Source: Kangiellaceae bacterium
GTDB lineage: Bacteria; Pseudomonadota; Gammaproteobacteria; Enterobacterales; Kangiellaceae
NCBI GenBank assembly: GCA_013373015.1
Contig: JABXIQ010000002.1
Coordinates: forward strand, 1-64,000
DNA: 64,000 bases
Reading direction: 5' to 3'
Shown in pieces: positions 14,616-17,140 of this stretch. Made by a program: the position numbers and the translations under genes. Under the pieces are notes generated by a model. The model worked only from the letters and a program-made list of their open reading frames with translations. It did not search any database and was not told where the DNA came from. How positions within the stretch are numbered: position 1 is the stretch's first letter; each line of letters starts with the position of its first letter.

Positions 14616-15659
<1,044 letters not shown>

Positions 15660-15677
15660 TTGATATGAGTGGTTTTT

Positions 15678-15709
15678 GCAAAATCGGGCTGGTTAGGGCC
15701 CGTTTTTGC
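15678..15709 (+). terminator. Hairpin with U-tract between mreB and mreC (probable attenuating terminator)
   Basis: GCAAAA-t-CGGGC pairs with GCCCG-t-TTTTGC around an 8-nt loop and includes a T5 run. No mreC promoter is evident after it, so read-through is expected. This could set the MreB to MreCD ratio. Confidence 0.6.
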
Positions 15710-15756
15710 ATTCTAGCTAATAAGAAATAAGAAAATGAAGAAATAGGAGCAAGGTC

Positions 15757-16662
15757 ATCAAGAATATATTCACCCAAGGCCCATCTTTGATCATTCAGCT
15801 GTTCATGGCGCTGGTGGTTTCGAGCGTGTTGATGGTTTTGGATTATCGTTTTGGTTATCTTGATTCTGCGCGCAAGACAGTTTCTACCGTGTTAACGCCT
15901 GTTTATTATTTGGCAAACTTGCCAAATGAAGTAGCTTCGTGGGCGGATGATAATATTGTTAGTCGTAATGATTTGCAGGATGAAAACCGCCGCCTAAAAG
16001 ATGAAGTTTTAATCTTAAAAGCGCAAAATCAAAGGTTGGTAGGATTGGAGTCTGAAAATGGACGATTGCGGGCCTTGCTGGGATCCGCCAGAAACCTGCG
16101 TGGTCAACGGCTCGTAGCTGAAGTTTTGAATGTTGATGCCAGCAAATTTACCAATGGTTTGATTATTAATAAAGGAGCCAATCACGGCGTATTTGTTGGA
16201 CAAGCTGTGGTAGATGCCGATGGGGTAATGGGGCAAATCACGCAGGTTTCTAATATTACCAGCCGCATGGTGTTGCTTAATGACCCCAAACACGCCATCC
16301 CTGTGCGCGATGATCGCAATGGTGTTAGAGCAATAGCGCAGGGTAATGGTCAATCTTTATATTTAAGACACTTACCCAATACAGTTGATATTCAAGAAGG
16401 TGACTTGTTGTTAAGCTCTGGTTTGGGCGAGAAATTTCCCGATGGCTATCCTGTGGCAAAAGTGATCTCAGTAACCAAACAAACCACTCAGCCTTATGCT
16501 GAAATATTAGCAGAGCCTACTGCCAATATTAACACCGCCGATCACGTCTTGCTGTTATGGCCTTATCGTGCAAATGAACCATCTTCTTTTTCAAAAGAGC
16601 CGCAAGCGCCTGAGTTGGAAGACAATTCTGAAACTGTGCAGGGAGTTGTGGATGAAAACTAA
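15757..16662 (+). CDS. mreC: Rod-shape determining protein MreC, apparently starting at an ATC codon
   Basis: Periplasmic scaffold of the elongasome: an N-terminal transmembrane helix (about 14-30), a coiled coil (about 70-110) and beta-domains (about 120-275). The track starts at TTG 15787, which would remove the conserved MreC leader. Reading upstream in frame gives (I)KNIFTQGPSLIIQLFMA, which aligns residue for residue with E. coli MKPIFSRGPSLQIRLILA. The position of Met1 is ATC at 15757, preceded by AGGAG with 7-nt spacing. The in-frame stop is at 15736, and no ATG, GTG or TTG exists between it and 15787. A non-canonical AUC start is therefore likely. The 3' end overlaps mreD by 11 nt. 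Confidence 0.93.
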   Translation: MKNIFTQGPSLIIQLFMALVVSSVLMVLDYRFGYLDSARKTVSTVLTPVYYLANLPNEVASWADDNIVSRNDLQDENRRLKDEVLILKAQNQRLVGLESENGRLRALLGSARNLRGQRLVAEVLNVDASKFTNGLIINKGANHGVFVGQAVVDADGVMGQITQVSNITSRMVLLNDPKHAIPVRDDRNGVRAIAQGNGQSLYLRHLPNTVDIQEGDLLLSSGLGEKFPDGYPVAKVISVTKQTTQPYAEILAEPTANINTADHVLLLWPYRANEPSSFSKEPQAPELEDNSETVQGVVDEN

Positions 16663-17140
16663 AAGCAAGCACGCAAGTTGGGTGATATATTTATCACTAA
16701 TAATTGCCTTGATTCTAAGTATTTTCCCTTTGCCTGAGGCTTGGCAAGCTTATAGACCCAGTTGGTTGTTATTGGTGGTTAGCTATTGGGCCATCGCATT
16801 ATCATATCGTTTTGGCTTGTTGTGGGCTTTCGTGTGGGGACTTATGCTAGATGCGCTCCTCGGAACCACTTTAGGGCTGCATAGTTTCGCCTTGTGCGTA
16901 GTGGTATTTATTGTACACCTCAATCACAAGCGGATCCGTTTATTTCCACATTGGAAGCAAGCTCTAACTATGGGTTCGTTAAGTGTATTGTATTTAGCGA
17001 TTGTTTTGTGGTTATCACGTTTAACAGGTAAGCCAGCACCAGATTGGGACTATTGGTTTGCAGCGCTGATTAATGCTGTTTTGTGGCCTTGGTTATTTAT
17101 TTTATTGCGTGATCTTAGGCGTTATTTTAAGGTCGTTTAA
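16652..17140 (+). CDS. mreD: Rod-shape determining protein MreD
   Basis: A 162-residue inner-membrane protein of the elongasome with about five transmembrane helices. The track ORF starts too early inside mreC. The ATG at 16652 overlaps the mreC stop by 11 nt, has GGGAG about 9 nt upstream and gives MKTKSKHASWVIYLSL, a normal MreD N-terminus. The overlap implies translational coupling with mreC. Confidence 0.93.
   Translation: MKTKSKHASWVIYLSLIIALILSIFPLPEAWQAYRPSWLLLVVSYWAIALSYRFGLLWAFVWGLMLDALLGTTLGLHSFALCVVVFIVHLNHKRIRLFPHWKQALTMGSLSVLYLAIVLWLSRLTGKPAPDWDYWFAALINAVLWPWLFILLRDLRRYFKVV

Follow-up and report, generated by a model that had tools for sequence, protein, structure and literature searches.

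Where does translation of the cell-shape gene mreC begin if no canonical start codon stands where the protein should start, and what would such a start mean for the amount of protein made? The question is raised by a Kangiella-type genome of the family Kangiellaceae, from which a stretch of 64,000 nucleotides (the window) was analysed. A sequence-only reading of the window had proposed that mreC starts at an AUC codon and that its translation is kept low or tuned. To our knowledge, conserved non-canonical starts have been described for very few bacterial genes. The gene pcnB of E. coli starts at AUU, and the initiation factor IF3 autoregulates translation of its own gene, infC.

The start codon of mreC in the window and in Kangiella

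The mreC coding sequence occupies positions 15757-16662 of the plus strand (301 codons and a stop). It lies between mreB (14616-15659) and mreD (16652-17140), both on the plus strand and both starting with ATG. The gene order mreB-mreC-mreD and a match to the MreC domain PF04085 (positions 16123-16560, 136 bits, above the cut-off) identify the product as the MreC rod-shape protein. An in-frame TGA at 15736-15738 rules out any start farther upstream. The codons at 15739-15786, RNRSKVIKNIFTQGPS, include no ATG, GTG or TTG, and the first canonical codon in the frame is the TTG at 15787-15789. The codon that aligns with the ATG of E. coli mreC, which encodes MKPIFSRGPSL, is the ATC at 15757-15759; the TTG is codon 11 counting from it. 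Thus a near-cognate codon occupies the position homologous to Met1, and no canonical codon is able to substitute for it. The ATC is preceded by the Shine-Dalgarno (SD) site AGGAG (15745-15749), which belongs to a conserved class of site, with a spacing of 7 nt; 6-8 nt is typical among relatives. The predicted duplex with the anti-SD has an energy of -6.5 kcal/mol at the ATC vs -3.0 kcal/mol at the TTG. On these points, i.e., the lack of a canonical codon between the stop and the TTG, the alignment of the ATC with Met1 behind AGGAG, the E. coli-like N-terminus and the lack of a good ribosome site at the TTG, the sequence-only reading agrees with the coordinates, the alignment and the E. coli sequence.

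The leader around the start codon is no more stable than shuffled sequences (z +0.6), and for this reason we propose neither a start-codon hairpin nor a riboswitch. In the window, a three-codon open reading frame (ATG AAG AAA TAG, 15735-15746) overlaps the SD site of mreC. It is apparently absent from other Kangiella and was rejected as a conserved element.

We compared 20 Kangiella genomes, most of them of high completeness. Relatives of the locus were located by the peptide IKNIFTQG among other patterns. Such a search is biased towards proteins with Ile in the first position, so its matches were left out of all frequencies, which were taken from whole-genome profile searches instead. A search of viral contigs yielded no relatives. 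The codon aligned with E. coli Met1 is ATT in 17 genomes and ATC in three, and in all 20 it sits behind an SD site and an in-frame stop. This alignment had been suggested as a check by the sequence-only reading, and it bears the proposed start out. It also excludes a sequencing error at ATC 15757, since the same codon class recurs in all of these mostly high-completeness genomes. Codons 2-10 differ at third positions yet retain K-N/T-L/I-F-T/A-R/Q-G-P-S. Their pN/pS is 0.13 vs 0.29 for codons 11-60, i.e., purifying selection is stronger in codons 2-10, which argues that they are translated and that the ATC before them is not a chance occurrence. Synonymous sites are otherwise nearly saturated among these genomes (pS 0.70). 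The TTG at codon 11 is present in only five of the 20 genomes, and the first downstream canonical codon shifts between codons 11 and 20. Initiation at AUC 15757, and not at TTG 15787, is strongly supported by these comparisons.

Start codons and Shine-Dalgarno sites across Gammaproteobacteria

A profile search over 281 gammaproteobacterial genomes, completed for low scorers, gave start regions from 187 genera (one genome each), in 153 of which the MreC N-terminus could be aligned. Non-canonical codons stand at the mreC start of 99 genera: AUC in 44, AUU in 35, AUA in 18 and GUU in two. AUG was found in 29 genera, GUG in four and UUG in three; there was no call in 18. Codons AUC, AUU and AUA (together AUH) thus account for 97 of the 153 genera, and 82 of the 153 have no ATG, GTG or TTG at all between the upstream stop and codon 9 inclusive. 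Genera with AUH are scattered over the whole tree, so the feature is conserved across distant lineages; examples of a non-AUG start are Aquisalimonas, Motiliproteus, Pseudomonas aeruginosa and one Legionellales metagenome-assembled genome. E. coli, Proteus and Aeromonas start mreC with ATG and have a weak SD site or none. The AUC start proposed for the window holds, and what had been missed was its scale: in most of the Gammaproteobacteria sampled, a non-AUG codon is, by alignment, the usual start of mreC.

Three genomes of one family (L289, L292 and L297), whose MreC N-termini are too diverged to be aligned, have ATT or ATC after SD sites of the AGGAG or AGGAGT type and no canonical codon before codon 16-17. 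They are probable further AUH starts, and since they fall outside the alignable set, the count for the class should be read as a minimum. In two genera of another family (L330 and L331), GTT stands at the mreC start with an SD site and no canonical codon near; a genus sister to them, L074, has ATT. As a start codon, GUU would be rarer still than AUH. Among 20 genomes of other classes of Proteobacteria, in a coarse comparison that placed N-termini by domain distance only, a canonical candidate was found near the expected MreC N-terminus, and none of the 20 had AUH with a strong SD site in place of a canonical start.

In P. aeruginosa (CP123788.1, L305) the mreC start reads TAGGAGCGGATC-ATC-AAA-CCG-CTA-TTC, with TAGGAG. 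The GenBank record begins the gene at GTG 267, 16 codons past the ATC at 219, and the annotated protein thus lacks IKPLFSKGPSLGVRLL, i.e., the late start costs it the cytoplasmic tail. The view that translation begins at the next canonical codon downstream (in the window TTG 15787, in P. aeruginosa the GTG that is codon 17), with the AUH stretch as untranslated leader, agrees with this record and with the canonical codon rules that gene callers assume, but on sequence grounds it is refuted and we give it hardly any credence: codons 2-10 are under coding constraint, the candidate codon is inconstant in Kangiella, the conserved tail would be lost, and over 95 AUH genera the median SD energy is -7.1 kcal/mol at the AUH codon vs +0.3 kcal/mol at the next canonical codon (p=2.6e-17), where relatives have no SD site. 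Re-annotation of MreC is called for, because expression constructs made from the annotated start would miss the native N-terminus.

Start codon and SD site change together. A GGAG, GAGG or AGGA motif within positions -17 to -4 is present in 74 of 99 genera with non-canonical starts (AUH or GUU) vs four of 29 with AUG (Fisher 4e-9), and the median energy of the anti-SD duplex is -7.1 kcal/mol in the former and -1.0 kcal/mol in the latter. In the same genomes mreB, taken as a control, starts with ATG in 99 of 102, and its SD energy is alike in the two groups (-3.8 vs -3.5 kcal/mol, p=0.15). Because mreB keeps both its ATG and an equal SD site in the two groups, the contrast is specific to mreC. 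In AUH genomes the SD site of mreC is far stronger than that of mreB (paired p=2e-10); in AUG genomes it is only marginally weaker than that of their own mreB (paired p=0.06). The compensation thus appears clearer on the AUH side than on the AUG side.

A first tree, built from 99 MreC columns, had low support and gave a single pair; it was superseded by a tree of MreB and MreC together (121 rows). The start label changes 17 times on this tree, at least 10 of them on supported branches. Among 10 independent pairs the SD site shifts in the same way in 7.9 and in the opposite way in 0.1. The sign test gives p of about 0.008 at SD cut-offs of -4 to -5 kcal/mol and is weaker at other cut-offs (about 0.06-0.07 at -3 and -6 kcal/mol, 0.38 at -7 kcal/mol).

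One could suppose that a strong SD site left the third position of the start codon free to drift, so that AUH is a neutral relic with no selection on output or regulation. Throughout the class this base does vary freely (T, C or A), Kangiella genomes having either T or C, and a strong SD site did accompany AUH. Drift, however, should often sample AUG, GUG and UUG too, and it should reach mreB, which keeps its ATG. Moreover, AUH has been retained throughout the depth of the class, and all Kangiella genomes keep it despite their synonymous divergence. We regard neutrality as improbable.

Expression of mreC and mreD relative to mreB

A terminator-like hairpin lies between mreB and mreC on the plus strand (15677-15710, z -3.6), with the core CGGGCTGGTTAGGGCCCG at 15685-15702 followed by TTTTTGC. 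A hairpin of the form ATCGGGC...GCCCGAT with a T-run is present at the same place in 20 of 20 Kangiella genomes, which strongly supports the earlier suggestion that the AUC start is partnered with a hairpin after mreB. It is likely to be a partial terminator that reduces the mreCD transcript. The start of mreD at 16652 lies inside the end of mreC (stop at 16660-16662), and because of this 11-nt overlap mreD is probably translationally coupled to mreC.

At any codon but AUG, GUG and UUG, initiation complexes are destabilised by IF3, which is the case for infC and sigR (PMC5472188). An excess of MreC deforms E. coli cells, and MreD counteracts this (PMC7793260). We consider it quite probable that a weak start discriminated against by IF3, a terminator and a coupled mreD together keep MreC and MreD below MreB. 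Initiator tRNA, guided by AGGAG, would initiate mreC at AUC 15757; as a near-cognate codon, AUH would be initiated poorly and rejected by IF3, and little protein would be made per mreC message. The terminator would cut the mreCD transcript relative to that of mreB, and mreD, through its coupling, would take over the low initiation rate of mreC. MreC and MreD would thus stay well under MreB, at a level suited to control of PBP2 and RodA, while the strong SD site would give back enough initiation for an essential gene. The usually weak or absent SD sites of AUG lineages are consistent with stabilising selection for a low initiation rate. Alternatively, a strong SD site may be merely what an AUH start requires to function, with no tuning involved. 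The elements of this model, namely the start position, the class-wide AUH, the strong SD site, the terminator-like hairpin and the mreD overlap, are read from sequence, from which the initiating residue and the initiation rate of mreC are predicted. The proposal that mreC translation is low or tuned thus fits the class-wide retention of AUH, the strong SD sites that accompany it and the deformation caused by excess MreC.

IF3, infC and the meaning of the mreC start

As a side effect of such a start, MreC output should go up as IF3 activity drops. That Kangiella does use AUH starts is indicated by infC, which begins with ATT or ATC in 19 of 19 genomes (L186-L204), with a GAGG-type SD site and no canonical codon near. 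Of the few Kangiella genes examined, none but infC and mreC has an AUH start: mrdA, an elongasome partner, starts with ATG, and pcnB, tried as a second AUH control, has ordinary TTG or ATG candidates. Thus pcnB of E. coli resembles mreC as a rare AUU-initiated gene, and that of Kangiella lies outside such a set. The two AUH genes share a strong SD site, wide conservation and the absence of canonical codons near the start. They differ in that IF3, the product of infC, regulates its own synthesis, whereas the product of mreC is a cell-shape membrane protein; unlike infC, mreC also uses AUA and GUU, and many lineages have AUG instead. In Enterobacterales, including E. coli, the same protein in the same operon order starts at ATG with a weak SD site.

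A further parallel is sigR of Streptomyces, whose GTC start is near-cognate, was misannotated, is repressed by IF3 and keeps the level of the protein below that of its partner (PMC5472188). We liken mreC to sigR, and GTC is the same kind of change as the GUU found here. The gene sigR is another gene in another phylum, and IF3 control was demonstrated for sigR, whereas for mreC we infer it from infC and sigR (PMC5472188), a sound inference by analogy.

This raises the possibility that AUH serves chiefly as a regulatory sensor, by which MreC tracks IF3 and ties elongation to translation capacity instead of holding a fixed low setting. The autoregulated infC of the same genomes, with the same codon class and SD type, speaks for such a role, as does the IF3 repression of the sigR start (PMC5472188). 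Yet Enterobacterales and the other AUG lineages manage without AUH, and mrdA of Kangiella has an ATG start. We hold a mainly sensory role to be possible but doubtful, and only tentatively suggest that mreC is a second class-wide AUH gene after infC, its translation set by IF3. If so, wall elongation in most Gammaproteobacteria would be wired to initiation fidelity, with infC and mreC under the same factor, and lineages of the Enterobacterales type would have cut the link to IF3 through AUG and a weak SD site.

Near-cognate initiation as such is already known; mreC as a class-wide member of this kind is provisionally new. The literature searched contained no report of a non-AUG start for mreC, which says little about novelty since subscription journals were mostly outside its scope. 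Over most of a bacterial class, including P. aeruginosa, a core cell-shape gene usually starts at AUC, AUU or AUA, and this suggests a means of limiting the amount of MreC that is widely conserved and has apparently been overlooked. With at least 10 switches of the start codon that are accompanied by changes of the SD site, mreC offers a natural experiment on the evolution of translation rate, and its codon class suggests that IF3 and cell elongation are linked in a way that can be tested.
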